64,000 bases of DNA from Sacculina carcini. Taxonomy: Eukaryota; Arthropoda; Thecostraca; Sacculinidae. Below are positions 7,453 through 61,723 of this stretch, piece by piece (within the stretch, counting starts at the first letter, position 1; the number at the start of each line of letters is the position of its first letter). The notes below the pieces were generated by a model. The model did not search any database. It saw nothing but the letters and a program-made list of their open reading frames with translations, and was not told the origin of the DNA. The stretch lies in assembly GCA_916048095.2 (NCBI GenBank), contig OU696573.1, positions 8,092,306 through 8,156,305 on the forward strand, read 5' to 3'. The translations under genes and the position numbers were made by a program.

Positions 7453-8161
7453 ATTACGAGCGAGCGAAGCGAGCAAGTTCATACTTGGTGTTACTAGAAA
7501 AATGAGTATGAGCGGCCCGCCGGCCGGCCCGCCGGCCGTGGTCACGCTTTTCAGAGGCTTATATCTCTGAAACCATAAGTCCGATTAACATGAATTATTT
7601 TTGTTGGGTAGCCTCATCCTTCTTGCCGCGGATGAGAACAAGCCGAATTATGTTAGTGCCCACTTTGGCACGTGGCACGTCCCAAATGCCCTCCTACTTT
7701 TTCCAAAAACACTTTTCACCCGATTTTCAGAGGCTTATATCTCTGAAACCATAAGTTCGATTAACATGCGTTTTTATGTTGGGTAGCCTCATCCTTCTTC
7801 ACGCGGATGAGAACAAGCCAAATTATGTTAGTGCCCACTTTGGCACGTGGCACGTCCCAAATGCCCTCCTACTTTTTCGAAAAACACTTTTTACCAGTTT
7901 TTCAGAGGCTTATATCTCTGAAGCCATAAGTCCGATAAAATGCGTTTTTTTGTTGGGTATCCCAATCTTTCCTGCCGCGAATGAGCCCATGCCGAATCAT
8001 GTCAGTGCCCAGTGTGGCACGTGGCACGTGCCATTTGCCCTCTTATGATTTAGCAGAAAAATTTGCCCATGCACGCAGACAAATGCATTTACGACAAAGT
8101 TTGATTACATATGATAGCTTCGCGCTCGCTCGTTCATCGCCGAACACGGCGCCTTACTGGT
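7453..8161 (+). mobile_element. HINE/pearl-like non-autonomous Helentron, copy 1
   Basis: Structure from left to right: ACGAGCGAGCG at 7456-7466; a GC-rich GGCCCGCCGGCC-type tract near 7514; three tandem core units (about 165-186 bp) at 7548-8050; the inverted subterminal repeat CGCTCGCTCGT at 8123-8133; a hairpin CGCCG-AACA-CGGCG at 8138-8151; and a terminal CTGG at 8157-8160. Subterminal inverted repeats, a 3' stem-loop and a tandem-repeat core are the described hallmarks of DINE-1/HINE elements and bivalve pearl elements. No protein is encoded, although the core reads open in one frame. Classification is inference. The repeat structure itself is certain, because copy 2 at 60653-61723 shares both ends. 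Confidence 0.75.
7548..8050 (+). repeat. Core tandem array of HINE copy 1 (3 units)
   Basis: Units start TTTTCAGAGGCTTATATCTC at 7548, 7734 and 7899. Each carries CCATAAG, TGTTGGGTA and GGCACGTGGCACGT segments in the same order. The last unit diverges at its 3' end into the element's terminal region. Confidence 0.95.
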
Positions 8162-9592: not shown

Positions 9593-9739
9593 TTGTATGT
9601 ATACGCGTCTGTGCGAAGCCATTTGCCTTGACAGGTCTGTGTGTCAACTAACACACACAGACACACAAACACACAAACAGTCAGACACGTACACATGTTT
9701 GACAGATAGTTTATGTTCATTAGCACCTGCATCTGTTTG

Positions 9740-11073
9740 TGAGTGAGTGAGTGAGTGAGTGAGTGAGTGAGTGAGTGAGTGAGTGAGTGAGTGAGTGAGT
9801 GAGTGAGTGAGTGAGTGAGTGAGTGAGTGAGTGAGTGAGTGAGTGAGTGAGTGAGTGAGTGAGTGAGTGAGTGAGTGAGTGAGTGAGTGAGTGAGTGAGT
9901 GAGTGAGTGAGTGAGTGAGTGAGTGAGTGAGTGAGTGAGTGAGTGAGTGAGTGAGTGAGTGAGTGAGTGAGTGAGTGAGTGAGTGAGTGAGTGAGTGAGT
10001 GAGTGAGTGAGTGAGTGAGTGAGTGAGTGAGTGAGTGAGTGAGTGAGTGAGTGAGTGAGTGAGTGAGTGAGTGAGTGAGTGAGTGAGTGAGTGAGTGAGT
10101 GAGTGAGTGAGTGAGTGAGTGAGTGAGTGAGTGAGTGAGTGAGTGAGTGAGTGAGTGAGTGAGTGAGTGAGTGAGTGAGTGAGTGAGTGAGTGAGTGAGT
10201 GAGTGAGTGAGTGAGTGAGTGAGTGAGTGAGTGAGTGAGTGAGTGAGTGAGTGAGTGAGTGAGTGAGTGAGTGAGTGAGTGAGTGAGTGAGTGAGTGAGT
10301 GAGTGAGTGAGTGAGTGAGTGAGTGAGTGAGTGAGTGAGTGAGTGAGTGAGTGAGTGAGTGAGTGAGTGAGTGAGTGAGTGAGTGAGTGAGTGAGTGAGT
10401 GAGTGAGTGAGTGAGTGAGTGAGTGAGTGAGTGAGTGAGTGAGTGAGTGAGTGAGTGAGTGAGTGAGTGAGTGAGTGAGTGAGTGAGTGAGTGAGTGAGT
10501 GAGTGAGTGAGTGAGTGAGTGAGTGAGTGAGTGAGTGAGTGAGTGAGTGAGTGAGTGAGTGAGTGAGTGAGTGAGTGAGTGAGTGAGTGAGTGAGTGAGT
10601 GAGTGAGTGAGTGAGTGAGTGAGTGAGCGAGTGAGTGAGTGAGTGAGTTAGTGAGTGAGTGAGTGAGTGAGCGAGCGAGTGAGTGAGTGAGTGAGTGAGT
10701 GAGTGAGTGAGTGAGTGAGTGAGTGAGTGAGTGAGTGAGTGAGTGAGTGAGTGAGTGAGTGAGTGAGTGAGTGAGTGAGTGAGTGAGTGAGTGAGTGAGT
10801 GAGTGAGTGAGTGAGTGAGTGAGTGAGTGAGTGAGTGAGTGAGTGAGTGAGTGAGTGAGTGAGTGAGTGAGTGAGTGAGTGAGTGAGTGAGTGAGTGAGT
10901 GAGTGAGTGAGTGAGTGAGTGAGTGAGTGAGTGAGTGAGTGAGTGAGTGAGTGAGTGAGTGAGTGAGTGAGTGAGTGAGTGAGTGAGTGAGTGAGTGAGT
11001 GAGTGAGTGAGTGAGTGAGTGAGTGAGTGAGTGAGTGAGTGAGTGAGTGAGTGAGTGAGTGAGTGAGTGAGTA
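9740..11073. repeat. 1.33-kb (TGAG)n tetranucleotide satellite
   Basis: About 333 head-to-tail copies of GAGT/TGAG. All visible interruptions (GAGC, GTTA, GAGCGAGC) fall within about 10625-10677. The rest is pure. On the minus strand the array reads as an endless Ser-Leu-Thr-His repeat of over 400 residues. I treat this as a repeat artefact, because any tetranucleotide lacking stops stays open in every phase. Confidence 0.98.
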
Positions 11074-11814: not shown

Positions 11815-12055
11815 ATGAGTTATTTTGTTATATAGGATGTATTTGCCGAAGCTTAATGAATACAACAATCAACGTGGTGTTTCATGATGTTGTTAAATAT
11901 GTGAATTGCTCTAGCAGCTTCATTTCATAATAAAAATGCATTATTTTTAGCTTTTCGAGCAAATGTAAATGACAAGTATTTTGTGTGCAAATTAACAATG
12001 AACGATTATTGCAAGATGCAACACACTGCAACGCAAATCAATTATTTTGCCTAGT

Positions 12056-12916
12056 AGTCTCACCTCACTAGTCATTGTAGTCACTAGAAATCTCACCTCA
12101 CTAGTCATTGTAGTCACTAGTAATCTCACCTCACTAGTCATTGTAGTCACTAGTAGTCTCACCTCACTAGTAATTGTAGTCACTAGTAATTTCACCTCAC
12201 TAGCAATTGTAGTCACTAGTAATCTCACCTCACTAGTAATTGTAGTCACTAGTAATCTCACCTCACTAGTAATTGTAGTCACTAGTAATCTCACCTCACT
12301 AGTTATTGTAGTCACTAGTAATCTCACCTCACTAGTAATTGTAGTCACTAGTAATCTCACCTCACTAGTAATTGTAGTCACTAGTAATCTCACCTCACTA
12401 GTAATTGTAGTCACTAGAAATCTCACCTCACTAGTAATTGTAGTCACTAGTAATTTCACCTCACTAGCAATTGTAGTCACTAGTAATCTCACCTCACTAG
12501 TAATTGTAGTCACTAGTAATCTCACCTCACTAGTAATTGTAGTCACTAGAAATCTCACCTCACTAGTAATTGTAGTCACTAGAAATCTCACCTCACTAGT
12601 AATTGTAGTCACTAGTAATCTCACCTCACTAGTTATTGTAGTCACTAGTAATCTCACCTCACTAGTAATTGTTGTCACTAGTAATCTCACCTCACTAGTA
12701 ATTGTAGTCACTAGAAATCTCACCTCACTAGTAATTGTAGTCACTAGTAATTTCACCTCACTAGTAATTGTAGTCACTAGTAATCTCACCTCACTAGTAA
12801 TTGTAGTCACTAGAAATCTCACCTCACTAGTAATTGTAGTCACTAATAATCTCACCTCACTAGTCATTGTAGTCACTAGTAGTCTCACCTCACTAGTAAT
12901 TGTAGTCACTAGTAAT
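12056..12916. repeat. 33-bp minisatellite, about 26 units
   Basis: The unit reads TCTCACCTCACTAGT then NATTGTAGTCACTAGNAA. Each unit has two ACTAG cores. Because 33 is a multiple of three and the unit has no stops in one frame per strand, both strands stay open: an 11-residue NLTSLVIVVTS repeat on plus and TTITSEVRLLV on minus. Variant units (TTTCACC, AGAAA, AGCAATT, TTATTG) recur in groups. One five-unit variant pattern recurs about nine units later, which indicates block duplication. A hAT element ends the array. Confidence 0.95.
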
Positions 12917-42174: not shown

Positions 42175-44320
42175 ACCCGCCCGTTGTGCGGAACAATTCA
42201 TAAAAATATTGCAAATTAAAAATAAATGAGGCAAACTCATGAAAACCTTAATCAATTAAAAGGTCTAAATTTCATTATTTTTAATTTTATTTTGACAAAA
42301 CATTTTCACTCAACCCGCCTCATATTTAAACCCGCCCGTCGTGCTGAATAATTCAGAACTCGAACACGATCCGTTCTGGATCTTGAAGTCAAATCCATTG
42401 GTTTTGTGCATGGATTAATTCTACAGGGTAAATTTAACGTTCTATGGTCTATAGTTGCTGCCCGCGGAGCATTTGTATTTTTAAAAAAATACTTTTTTCT
42501 AAATGAACCATTTGAAAAAATGAACTAAAAAATGGAAACACTTTTTTTAAACCCGCCCGTCGTGCGGAACAATTCATACAATACAATTCATATTTGAAGT
42601 CATATCCATTGGTTTTGTGTATGGATTAATTCTAGAGGGGAAATTGAACGTTCTATTGTCTATAGTTGCTGCCCGCGGAACATTTATATTTTATTCATTT
42701 ACATTAACATTTTTATTTTTTATTTTTTATGAACCATTTGAAAAAATGATCTGAAACACTTTTTTAAACCCACCCGTCGTGCGGAACAATTCATACAATA
42801 AAATTCATATCAAATCCAGAAAATATAATGAATACAAATTGAAAACCAAAAAATGTAACCTATAAATATCTTAACCAATAGAAAAGTCTGAATGTGAATA
42901 TTTTTGTTCTTATTTTCACAAATATTATTCCTCAACCCGCCTGATATATAAATCTGCCCGTCGTGTGGTATAATTCAGAACACAAACACGAAACAAACAA
43001 TGAAAGATGATGAAATCTTTTCATCAGAATGCTTCCAAACTATATTTATTACTTAACATCATTCCCCAATATCATTTGCTCAAGTACTATTTCACTTTTA
43101 CCGCTATAATATTTATTGTTAAAATTTATATATTTTCCGCTATCATTAAAACCCAATATAACCTGAGTCAAACCTACCCAACCCAACCCAACCATTCAAT
43201 CTTGACCGCTCTCAGCCTAGTCTGAGGTGATTTAACTTATTAGTTTGTGATCACAAAATATACTGATGCGATCATAATTTGTAATCAGAAGACTGAGATT
43301 ATCTACCCCAGGGGTCCCAAACACGCGGCCCACCAATACTTTTCTCTCAACCCGCCAATATAGTATCGGGACCAAACTGTAATGCAGCTAAATTCACATT
43401 TGTTGCATAATGCGATATAATTATACACCATTATCATATTATCTCATAATTCCCGGTTAATGCTTCCACTAATGCCTCATATTCATACAGTTGTTATTTT
43501 TTGGATTACACCGATATTACAGCCCTTGATATTACAGCCGATATTATATTATGCAATCTATATTCTGCTACGTATTATTCCTAATACATATATCATCAGA
43601 TCGCAAAATATATCTAAAGGTTCACATCATTCTCCAAAATCATTTGCTTAAGAGCTATTCTACTTTTATCGCTAGAATATTTACTGCTAGCAAAATATCA
43701 TATACCTCGCTATCATTTAAACCCACTCTTAATAGATACATTTAATTCCCCCGTCGTGCGGAACAGTTCATAAAATATAATTAATATTGAATTCATAAAA
43801 AATTAGTGCAAATTGAACAAGAAAAACAAACCCATAGGAAAGTTTTAGCTAATATAAAAGTCTAAATGTGAAATTTATGTTTCAATTTAGAAAACATGTT
43901 TTTCCACAACCCGCCTCATATTTATAGCTACCCGTCGTGCGGAATAATTCAGAACTCAACCACGAAACAAACACAAAGAAAATTGATGAAAAACGACCAA
44001 TAGAAAAGTCAAATTTGTAAATTCTTGTTTTAATTATTGACGATGATTTTCCCTCAACACTGCTCAAATTCACACCCGTCCTTCGTGTGTAGTAATTCAG
44101 AAGTGTAACACTATCAAAACAATGAAACATCTCTATAATTCCAGATTAATGCTTCCTCTATAACAGCATATGAATATACTTGGCATTGCATGATATTACA
44201 ACCCGTATCCTTATGCAACTTAAGCGTATGCAACTTGAAATTAAACCAATTAAATTACACAGTAAAATTCAGTAGCTTACTTTGTTCCAAGTAGCATTTT
44301 ACCCGCCCGTCGTGCGGAAC
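42175..44320 (+). repeat. Interspersed CCCGCCCGTCGTGCGGAA repeat array
   Basis: Occurrences, some with changes, are at about 42175, 42330, 42550, 42768, 42951, 43748, 43928, 44074 and 44301. Many are preceded by CAACCCGCCTCATATTTA. Spacing is about 150-230 bp except for an ~800-bp gap after 42951. Near 43318 in that gap a hAT-like start, CAGGGGTCCCAAAC, appears, suggesting an insertion. Confidence 0.85.
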
Positions 44321-44449
44321 ATTTGATGTGTAAATATTGAGGACAATAAAGACTTTCTATTCAGTATAGTTTCGCATTAATTAAACTGTACGCAATAAAA
44401 CCACACCATCCATGCTTGGAGATAATATGATGCATTCTTAATTGTGATT

Positions 44450-46150
44450 GGGCTTCAGTGAAATTTAATCGGTGTATATTCCTGTGTAATCGCAAGTGCG
44501 CATAATAGCTGTCAAATTGGCAATATGTCCTTTTGACTTTACACCGCCGTAACTTCCTTCAGATACCCTTTGGAAAATTACAAATTATACCGTATTGTAG
44601 AAAACAAGATTTCTAGCACGATGGTATAATTTATTTTTATGTATAACAAATAGTTACTGAGAAATGGTAGAAAAATTAATTAATTTTAGTCGCCCGGTGT
44701 TCAAGTGTAATTTTGGATGTATTTGAGAATTTTGCCAATTTGACACGTTTTTTGTACCATTTGTGGGTATAAATTATAGCTTATATTGTAGAACACAAAA
44801 TTCTCTACACAGTAGTATATTCCTGTGTAATCGCAAGTGCGTAAATTGTGATTGGACTTCAGTGAAATTAAATCAGTGTATATTCATGTGTAATCGCAAG
44901 TGCGCATAATAGCTGTCAAATTGGCAACATGACATTTTGAATTTACACCGCCGTGACTTCCTTTAGATACACTTTGGAAAATTAAAAATTATACCGTATT
45001 GTAGAAAACAAAATTTCTAGCACGATGGTATAATTTATTTTCATGTATAACAAATAGTTACTGAGAAATAGTAGAAAAATTAACTAATTTTAGTCGCCCG
45101 GTGTTCAAGTGTAATTTTGGATGTATTTGAGAATTTTGCCAATTTTACACGTTTTTTGTATCATTTGTGGGTATGAATTATAGCTTATCTTGTAGAACAA
45201 AAAATAATCTACACAGTTGTATATTCCTGTGTAATCGCAAGTGTGCATAATAGCTGTCAAATTGGCAACATGACATTTTGACTGTACACCGCCGTGACTT
45301 CCTTTAGGTTCACTTTGGAAAATAAACAATTATACCGTATTGTAGAAAACAAAATTTCTAGCACGATGGTATAATTTATTTTAATGTGTGACATATAGTT
45401 ACTGAGAAATAGTAGAAAAATTAATTAATTTTAATCACCCGGTGTTCAAGTGAAATTTTGGATCTATTTGAGAATTTTGCCAATTTTACACGTTTTTTGT
45501 ATCATTTGTGGGTATAAATTATAATTTTTATTGTAGAACACAAAATTATCTACACAATAGTATAATTTTTATAGCTGTACCATTGCTGGTTTATGAGGAA
45601 TAGATAGCGGAATATTGACCAAAATATTCACGTTTTTGTGTGCTAATTTTGCCTTTTTGACTTTGTCATTTACACTTCACACCGCCGTAACTTTTTTTTA
45701 ATACACTTTGTAAAATTAAAAATTATACTGTGTTGTAGAAAAGAAAATTCCCAGCATGATGGTATTATTTATTTAGATGTGTGATAATTATTTTTTGAGA
45801 AATAGAGAAAAAAGTATAGAAAATTTGACGCGTGGAGTTTAAATAAAATTTTGAATGTAGATTGAATTTTTTTCCATTTTACATGTTTTATATTAAATTT
45901 TTGGGGTATAAATTATAGTGCGTTGAGTAGAAGATAAAATGTTATACACAGTGGTATAATTTGTATAGTTGTACCATTGCTGGTTTAGGAGGAGTAGTCT
46001 TCAGAAAATCGACCAAAATTTTCGCATTTTTTAGGGTTCATTTTGTCTTTTCACCGCAATAACTTTTTTTGGTTTTATTTTTGAAATTTAAAATTTAGTG
46101 TTAAGTGTAGACAAAATTTCCAACATTATTGTATAAATTTTCAGCGGATA
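44450..46150 (+). repeat. Degenerate ~340-405 bp tandem array, about 5 units
   Basis: The phrase CACCGCCGTAACTT (or a variant) recurs at about 44542, 44947, 45288, 45679 and 46053. CTGTGTAATCGCAAGTG and GGTATAATTTATT recur in the same relative order. Divergence rises toward the 3' end. Confidence 0.85.
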
Positions 46151-60650: not shown

Positions 60651-60652
60651 AT

Positions 60653-61723
60653 TATTACGAGCGAGCGATAGCGAGCGAGTTCATACTTGGTGTTACTAGA
60701 AAAATGAGTATGAGCGGCCCGCCGGCCGGCCCGCCGGCCGGCCGTGGTCACGCTTTTCAGAGGCTTATATCTCTGGAACCATAAGTCCGATTAACATGCA
60801 TTTTTTTTTGTTGGGTAGCCTCATCCTTCCTGCCGCGGATGAGACCAAGCCGAATCATGTCATTGCCCACTGTGGCACGTGGCACGTCCCAAATGCCCTC
60901 CTACTTTTTCGAAAAACACTTTTTACCCATTTTTCAGAGGCTTATATCTCTGGAACCATAAGTCTGATTAACATGCTTTTTTTGTTGTTAGGTAGCCTCA
61001 TCCTTTTTGCCGCGGATGAAACCAAGCCGAATCATGACAGTGCCCCATGTGGCACGTGGCACGTCCCAAATGCCCTCCTACTTTTTCGAAAAACACTTTT
61101 TACCCGTTTTTCAGAGGCTTATATCTCTGGAACCATAAGTTTGATTAACATGCGTTTTTTTTGTTGGGTAGCCTCATCCTTCCTGCCGCGAATGAGACTA
61201 TGCCGAATTATGTCAGTGCCCAGTGTGGCACGTGGCACGTCCCAAATACCCTCCTACTTTTTCGAAAAACACTTTTTACCCGTTTTTCAGAGGCTTATAT
61301 CTCTGGAACCATAAGTTTGATTAACATGCGTTTTTTTGATGGGTAGCCTCATGCTTTCTGCCGCGAATGAGACTATGCCGAATTATGTCAGTGCTCACTG
61401 TGGCACGTGGCACGTCCCGAATGCCCTCCTACTTTTTCGAAAAAAAAATTTACCCGTTTTTCAGAGGCTTATATCTCTGGAACCATAGGTCCGATTAACA
61501 TGCGTTTTTGTTTGTTGGGTAGCCCAATCCTTCCTGCCGCGAATGAGACTATGCCGAATTATGTCAATGCCCAGCATGGCACGTGACACGTGCCATATGC
61601 CCTCTTATAATTTAGCAGAAAACTTTGCCCATGCACGCAGACAAATACATTTACGACAAAGTTTGATTACATATGACAACTTCGCGCTCGCTCGTTCATC
61701 GCCGAACACGGCGCCTTACTGGT
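60653..61723 (+). mobile_element. HINE/pearl-like non-autonomous Helentron, copy 2
   Basis: Same plan as copy 1: ACGAGCGAGCG at 60657-60667, GGCCGGCC tract near 60720, five core units, CGCTCGCTCGT at 61685-61695, hairpin CGCCG-AACA-CGGCG at 61700-61713 and terminal CTGG at 61719-61722. Flanks outside these limits differ from copy 1, which fixes the ends to within a few bases. Confidence 0.78.
60754..61625 (+). repeat. Core tandem array of HINE copy 2 (5 units, ~176 bp)
   Basis: Units start with TTTTCAGAGGCTTATATCTC at 60754, 60931, 61108, 61284 and 61458 (spacing 177, 177, 176, 174). A 172-codon open frame across the first units is a by-product of repeat length and low stop content. Confidence 0.96.

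Follow-up and report, generated by a model that had tools for sequence, protein, structure and literature searches.

The 64,000-nucleotide stretch of Sacculina carcini DNA that we analyzed (hereafter the window) contains two copies of a short repeated element, both on the forward strand: a five-unit copy of 1068 bp at 60655..61722 that runs from TTACGAGCG to CTTACTGG, and a three-unit copy of 707 bp at 7454..8160 that belongs to a more diverged subfamily (89.8% identity over 620 bp to the five-unit copy). These exact bounds come from flank comparison. After removal of one duplicated locus, 38 independent insertions were left of 39 elements with both ends, and their comparison places the boundaries exactly at TTACGAG...CTTACTGG, with no target duplication. 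The first element base and the base flanking it are both T, and the cut could be placed one base to the right with the same data. A sequence-only reading of this DNA had already described two copies with both ends in common and boundaries that coincide with a hairpin and a CTGG end. All of this was confirmed by flank comparison, and the copies themselves are real, but 1–2 flanking bases per side had been wrongly included in their coordinates. Elsewhere, the window holds a 1.3-kb (GTGA)n array (9739-11072; 333 units, 99% matches), a 33-bp minisatellite (12051-12916), and tandem duplications that overlap one another and repeat every 404 or 341 bp (44440-45564).

The two ends carry an 11-bp subterminal inverted repeat (ACGAGCGAGCG / CGCTCGCTCGT), with 2 nt between it and the 5' terminus and 27 nt between it and the 3' terminus; it occupies 60657..60667 and 61685..61695 in the five-unit copy and at 7456..7466 and 8123..8133 in the three-unit copy (all on the forward strand). 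When the two 60-bp ends were shuffled 2000 times base by base, no inverted repeat of such length arose, and these repeats, which had been noticed before, are real features of the element. Downstream, a hairpin with a 5-bp stem, CGCCG-AACA-CGGCG, occupies 61700..61713 on the forward strand (8138..8151 in the three-unit copy) and ends 9 nt before the 3' end, followed by the terminal CTGG at 61719..61722. What upholds the previously proposed hairpin is its conservation in 341 tails across the genome (reversed-pattern control 0) and not its folding energy, which is ordinary compared to shuffles (z -0.43). Near the 5' end, we read from the sequence an internal inverted repeat, TCATACT...AGTATGA, around the word CTTGG^T (60681..60713, forward strand); a predicted fold pairs its arms, again with ordinary energy (z 0.09). 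The right module with the 3' end covers 61605..61722 on the forward strand, and the distance from the start of the last unit to the end of the element is 257–265 nt in 40 elements. The family's end words are TTACGAGCGAGCG on the left and CGCCG-N4-CGGCGCCTTACTGG on the right, and three end sequences of the element had no match in the literature that we searched.

We scanned the 264-Mb genome (43 contigs) and found 341 right ends (≤2 mismatches in a 38-mer) and 188 left ends (≤3 mismatches in a 38-mer, a count that omits the subfamily of the three-unit copy, which has an indel there). Reversed-pattern controls gave 0 matches in both cases, and the ends of this family are thus not a product of chance; a shorter exact left pattern gave 314 matches, with 3 for its reversed control. 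Two copies elsewhere share 99.5% identity with the five-unit copy of the window and another two share 98.9%, and since these near-identical copies sit in different flanks, their sequences argue that the family was recently active. The longest reading frame in the element, 172 aa, spans the repeats and had no match in a Pfam search at E 0.1, and the element is apparently non-coding and gene-less. On contig C4 there are seven right ends at 9.29–9.48 Mb, and on contig C1 six left ends, all flanked by the letters TAA, are spaced out over 1.83–2.47 Mb, which suggests segmental duplication.

Comparison of flanks further revealed a near-absolute target word, T-N-R^T, with ^ as the insertion point. 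Position -3 of the left flank is T in 38/38 selected insertions and in 307 of 314 exact left ends genome-wide, and position +1 of the right flank is T in 38/38 selected insertions and in 272 of 278 exact right ends. At -1, purines make up 37 of the 38 bases in the selected set and 90 of 100 in the first listed left ends (A 74, G 16, T 10); in the latter, C is found at -2 only three times. For comparison, the background probability of T at -3 given R^T is 0.27 in the window. At the five-unit copy, the target bases are TTA on the left (60652..60654) and the conserved T on the right (61723..61723), both on the forward strand. Insertion between T and T, which had been expected for this element, was not what we found: a second T follows the conserved one in just 13/38 insertions, so that neither way of placing the cut gives TT.

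The same 38 insertions include none with a flank-to-flank identity of 4, 6, or 8 bp. Identities of 3 bp in eight of them, of 5 bp in one, and of 7 bp in one are read as chance among AT-rich flanks that all begin with T. Ten comparisons of joined flanks with empty sites, of uneven strength, likewise show no target duplication, so that the anticipated absence of such a duplication is supported. Three of the empty paralogues lie in the window itself, all on the reverse strand: one for the L019 site at 43513..43672, where GATCTGATGA|TATATGTA is unbroken (95.6% over 160 bp across the junction), one for the L040 site at 43722..43880 (92.5% over 161 columns), and one for the L033 site at 44252..44416 (90.9% over 165 columns). 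The T run of the L040 site is one T longer than that of its window paralogue and no longer than that of a second paralogue in locus L019. Short empty paralogues exist for L014, L024, and L044 (47, 49, and 67 columns), while L017 sits in one unit of a local tandem repeat, the remaining units being unbroken, L027 sits in a 12-bp repeat (judged by eye), and L021 and L080 are self-insertions (see below). Paralogue matches of L015/L018, L026, L029, L046, and L041 were left uncounted due to gaps, simple repeats, or element sequence at the junction, and at L093 an AAT microsatellite surrounds the insertion, so that duplication is not judgeable there. Window positions 43513-44416 are paralogous to the places where L019, L033, and L040, three separate copies, inserted, which points to an AT-rich repeat family that was hit by the element more than once.

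Most of the element is taken up by a central array of ~176-bp units. TRF reports 4.8 copies at 60754..61604 in the five-unit copy (unit starts 60754, 60931, 61108, 61284, and 61458) and 2.8 copies at 7548..8042 in the three-unit copy (7548, 7724, and 7899), both on the forward strand, and the unequal number of core units reported earlier, 5 vs 3, was recovered as eight core matches with ≤3 mismatches and none in shuffles. Genome-wide there are 869 unit cores (≤3 mismatches in 33), or ~2.5 per tail. Element lengths form a ladder: among 51 exact left ends on contigs C1–C12, 34 have an exact right end no more than 3 kb away, and 33 of these pairs round to 1, 2, 3, 4, or 5 units (n = 3, 5, 11, 7, and 7), in a set that required exact ends and was not chosen via the five-unit copy. 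Its exceptions are a 775-bp member of 3.3 units, which is among the 33, and one pair broken by another insertion. Arrays above five units were seen at L039 and L041 (6 units each) and at L040 (7 units).

The positional identity of the units reveals how these arrays change. We compared units by position in 40 elements that were mostly found by searching with the five-unit copy and are thus biased to five-unit elements; they include L015 and L018, which have flanks in common, and L027, which was scored with four units because one core was missed although its spacing shows five. In a set of 29 five-unit elements, mean divergence between elements is 2.0–3.7% for units of equal position, whereas units at different positions differ by about 7–16.5%, also within one element. 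The nearest relative of a unit is the one at the same position in another element for 141 of 145 units, and it lies inside the unit's own element for only 4 of 192. Larger arrays read 1-1-2-3-4-5, 1-2-3-2-3-4-5, or 1-2-3-3-4-5, and smaller ones lack inner units (e.g., 1-2-3-5). Type 1 comes first and type 5 last in 10 of the 11 elements not scored as five (L027, really five, included), and a one-unit copy carries type 5. Because positional identity is kept, we conclude that the array is inherited as an ordered block that is edited by gain or loss of whole units. Growth and shrinkage of an array inside a mobile element, as proposed from the two window copies, is therefore borne out in the form of whole inner units, over the ladder of 1–5 and the arrays of 6–7. 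The proposed seeding of satellite DNA found no support, since the 869 units do not exceed what the elements would hold. We saw no long free 176-bp arrays in this comparison of 869 cores with 341 tails or at the first 100 exact core places, and the longest array, 7 units inside an element (L040), refers to assembled sequence only, with heterochromatin unassembled.

Some copies are nested within each other. L021 (contig C1) and L080 (contig C8) each contain a complete copy within another copy, in the same orientation and at the same site, CATACTTGG^TGTT, whose homologue in the five-unit copy is the CTTGG^TGTT at 60690..60691 on the forward strand. The word CTTGG^T conforms to T-N-R^T and looks similar to the 3' end of the element itself. 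These two events are independent because the outer left flanks differ (TTA and TTT) and the inner copies have five and three units. The third nested 3' junction, at L041 (contig C15), is related but carries a one-base difference and no outer 5' end, and we accordingly count two independent self-insertions. If all T-D-R^T sites were equal, two insertions at one site would have a chance of ~0.04 on one strand and 0.02 on both, which makes a preference for the internal CTTGG^T site suggestive only. No head-to-tail junction of an exact tail and a left end was found; tandem copies are described for Helitrons in the accessible part of PMC7492417. A different insertion, L093:1956-3207, lies near the 3' end of a copy and has 8 bp of the element repeated at its edges in a cut-and-paste-like manner.

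The genome contains at least 150 matches to the Rep domain PF14214 (150 of 179 candidates scored). We compared 57 of these 150 Rep places (on C1–C12) with 90 exact tails from the 100 that were listed, leaving out short second pieces beside typed places as well as 10 tails on C15, and no Rep/helicase locus among them bears the element's ends. The predicted Rep/helicase partner with the same 3' hairpin was hence not found in this part of the Rep loci. The nearest Rep fragment lies 1.7 kb from a tail, outside that element (L076), and the next nearest 23 kb away. The exact 29-nt tail is preceded by a non-C two places upstream only twice in the genome, both times on elements that are short by their coordinates, with left ends ~690 and ~890 bp away. 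Among 13 left ends chosen by eye because they seemed to have no tail or a distant one (L081–L092 and L094), eight do reach a right end, in the case of L091 with a long insertion, and five do not; at L081, homology to the element is lost after 40 bp.

The 20 best Rep loci (L048–L067) have the motif GLPH in 18 cases, Helitron families A and B included. Family A encodes a PIF1 helicase after the Rep, and the resemblance between two of its copies continues beyond the stop codon over no less than 10.2 kb on C1 and 8.4 kb on C36, within which no end could be placed. Judged by eye, its loci (L048–L060, L068, L072, L077–L078, and L095–L098) have tandem repeats before the Rep domain, and far downstream lies an array of short units of ~41 bp. 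Family B ends at GGTTTTAC, which is not CTRR, and its unlike flanks do not start with T. On contig C7, a Rep/PIF1-like locus (L073:898-3999 and L074) with the Rep motif RGTIHAH (GTIH), unlike families A and B, is followed by a frame for a ubiquitin-specific protease (PF00443, E 3.5e-47). Contig C35 has a cluster of 28 of the 150 Rep matches, all partial, at ~3.3–4.46 Mb.

We consider it likely that the element is a non-autonomous, rolling-circle member of the Helitron superfamily whose architecture is mosaic. Nicking and joining by an HUH-type Rep is the mode of the Helitron superfamily, and the combination of no duplication, fixed asymmetric ends, and the recurrent word T-N-R^T fits it. A Rep/helicase supplied in trans by another element would bind the subterminal inverted repeats and nick at T-N-R^T, one strand would be displaced by replication from the 5' end until the hairpin and CTGG stop the process, and the displaced strand would be joined to target DNA in which this word has been nicked. 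T-N-R^T does stand at all three cut places of this model: as TNR^TTACG where the element begins, as CTGG^T where it ends, and in the target. As no autonomous partner was found among the Rep loci compared, we only infer the Rep, the helicase, and the strand displacement. The 176-bp array would be passive cargo, with its first and last units fixed to the neighboring modules and with in-register recombination or slippage during replication adding or removing inner units. Several points speak against a rolling-circle Helitron: the 5' end is TT instead of TC, hairpin energy is ordinary, no head-to-tail junction was seen, T at -1 (10) and C at -2 (3) occur among the first 100 listed ends, some flanks share 3, 5, or 7 bp, and the L040 site has an extra T relative to one paralogue.

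Other explanations account for part of these data. A MITE of a cut-and-paste DNA transposon could be just as short and apparently non-coding, with inverted repeats near both ends and several hundred copies, but it is scarcely credible here because the 38 insertions show no fixed target duplication, the empty sites have none either, and the inverted repeats are asymmetric and internal. It is very improbable that we are looking at a dispersed satellite with common flanks that spread by recombination or extrachromosomal circles without any transposase: the tandem 176-bp core of variable copy number would suit such an origin, but both ends are base-exact, the target word is near-invariant, and units are not homogenized within arrays. 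A true HINE, i.e., a non-autonomous Helentron that inserts at TT or T-rich sites and is moved by a Rep-helicase-endonuclease Helentron, would explain the subterminal inverted repeats that start 2 nt inside the 5' end, the 3' palindrome 9 nt from the end, the internal 5' inverted repeat, and a central ~176-bp array like those in the available descriptions of Cg_HINE and DINE elements. Against it stand the target T-N-R^T instead of TT, the CTRR-type 3' end, a 3' subterminal repeat 27 nt from the end compared to about 38–60 nt in mite HINEs as far as the accessible text describes them, and the prevalence of GLPH in the best Rep loci, which the available part of PMC4067079 gives as the Rep form of Helitrons and not of Helentrons. 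We therefore find a true HINE unlikely.

Within the Helitron superfamily, the evidence could be joined into a more specific picture that we put forward tentatively as one possibility. The element may belong to a transposase lineage intermediate between Helitrons and Helentrons (TT...CTRR plus subterminal inverted repeats) that reads the one word T-N-R^T in the target as well as at both ends of the donor; the CTTGG^T mimic near the 5' end might draw self-nesting, and the partner may have been lost or have diverged. With several hundred copies, some of them near-identical, and with T-N-R^T the same at both junctions and at the empty site, the family offers a sharp view of target choice and joining by a rolling-circle element. 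It also illustrates that arrays in such elements can grow and shrink without visibly turning into satellite, a counter-case to the general view of satellite seeding.

Compared to canonical Helitrons (Helitron1), which end in 3' CTRR with a hairpin ~10–12 nt upstream, the element ends in CTGG with a hairpin slightly closer, at 9 nt. Canonical Helitrons start with TC and insert at A^T without duplication, whereas our element starts with TT and has T at +1 (272/278) but a mix of bases at -1 (A 74, G 16, T 10 in the first 100). On balance, its CTGG, the hairpin close by, and insertion at R^T recall Helitrons more than the Helentron initially suggested. The known families closest to it are insect Hel-2 Helitrons, the proto-Helentron, and, for the central array, oyster Cg_HINE. 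Hel-2 and other insect non-autonomous Helitrons share with it, in the available text of PMC4344730, the 3'-CTRR, the hairpin, flanking AT, subterminal and 5' internal inverted repeats, and internal tandem repeats; according to the same text, Hel-2 starts with TC and carries a tetranucleotide microsatellite, unlike the TT start and 176-bp satellite-like unit found here. The proto-Helentron of Phytophthora infestans, a term that we met in the literature searched only in the accessible part of PMC4067079, is described there with 5'-TT, 3'-CTAG (CTRR type), and A^T insertion without duplication. Our element has the TT start, CTGG in place of CTAG, and R^T with A in 74/100 cases; the proto-Helentron is autonomous, ~14 kb long, and equipped with a Helentron-type Rep, whereas no partner was found for ours in a partial survey. 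Fusarium FoHeli1/2, as far as the available portion of PMC5148889 goes, are alike in their asymmetric inverted repeats, hairpins, and extended target context but have an ATTTT end and insert between TNAT and T or A (both are given). HINE, DINE-1, Cg_HINE, and Pearl elements resemble ours in subterminal inverted repeats, a 3' palindrome, and central repeats, and differ in their TT or T-rich targets from its T-N-R^T and CTGG end (accessible parts of PMC4067079, PMC2374699, and PMC7492417); oyster Cg_HINE central repeats measure 140–180 bp in arrays of mostly up to 5 in the available text of PMC7492417. The Helentron/HINE label of the sequence-only reading thus stands with respect to the subterminal inverted repeats, the 3' hairpin or palindrome, the central array, and the absence of target duplication, but not for insertion between T and T, the preference that excerpts of PMC4067079 and PMC7492417 give for Helentrons and HINEs. 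Since the element lacks both this TT target and the 5'-TC of Helitrons, we assign it to the Helitron superfamily and not to any finer group, and its combination of Helitron ends with Helentron-like subterminal repeats in one element bears on the split between the two groups.
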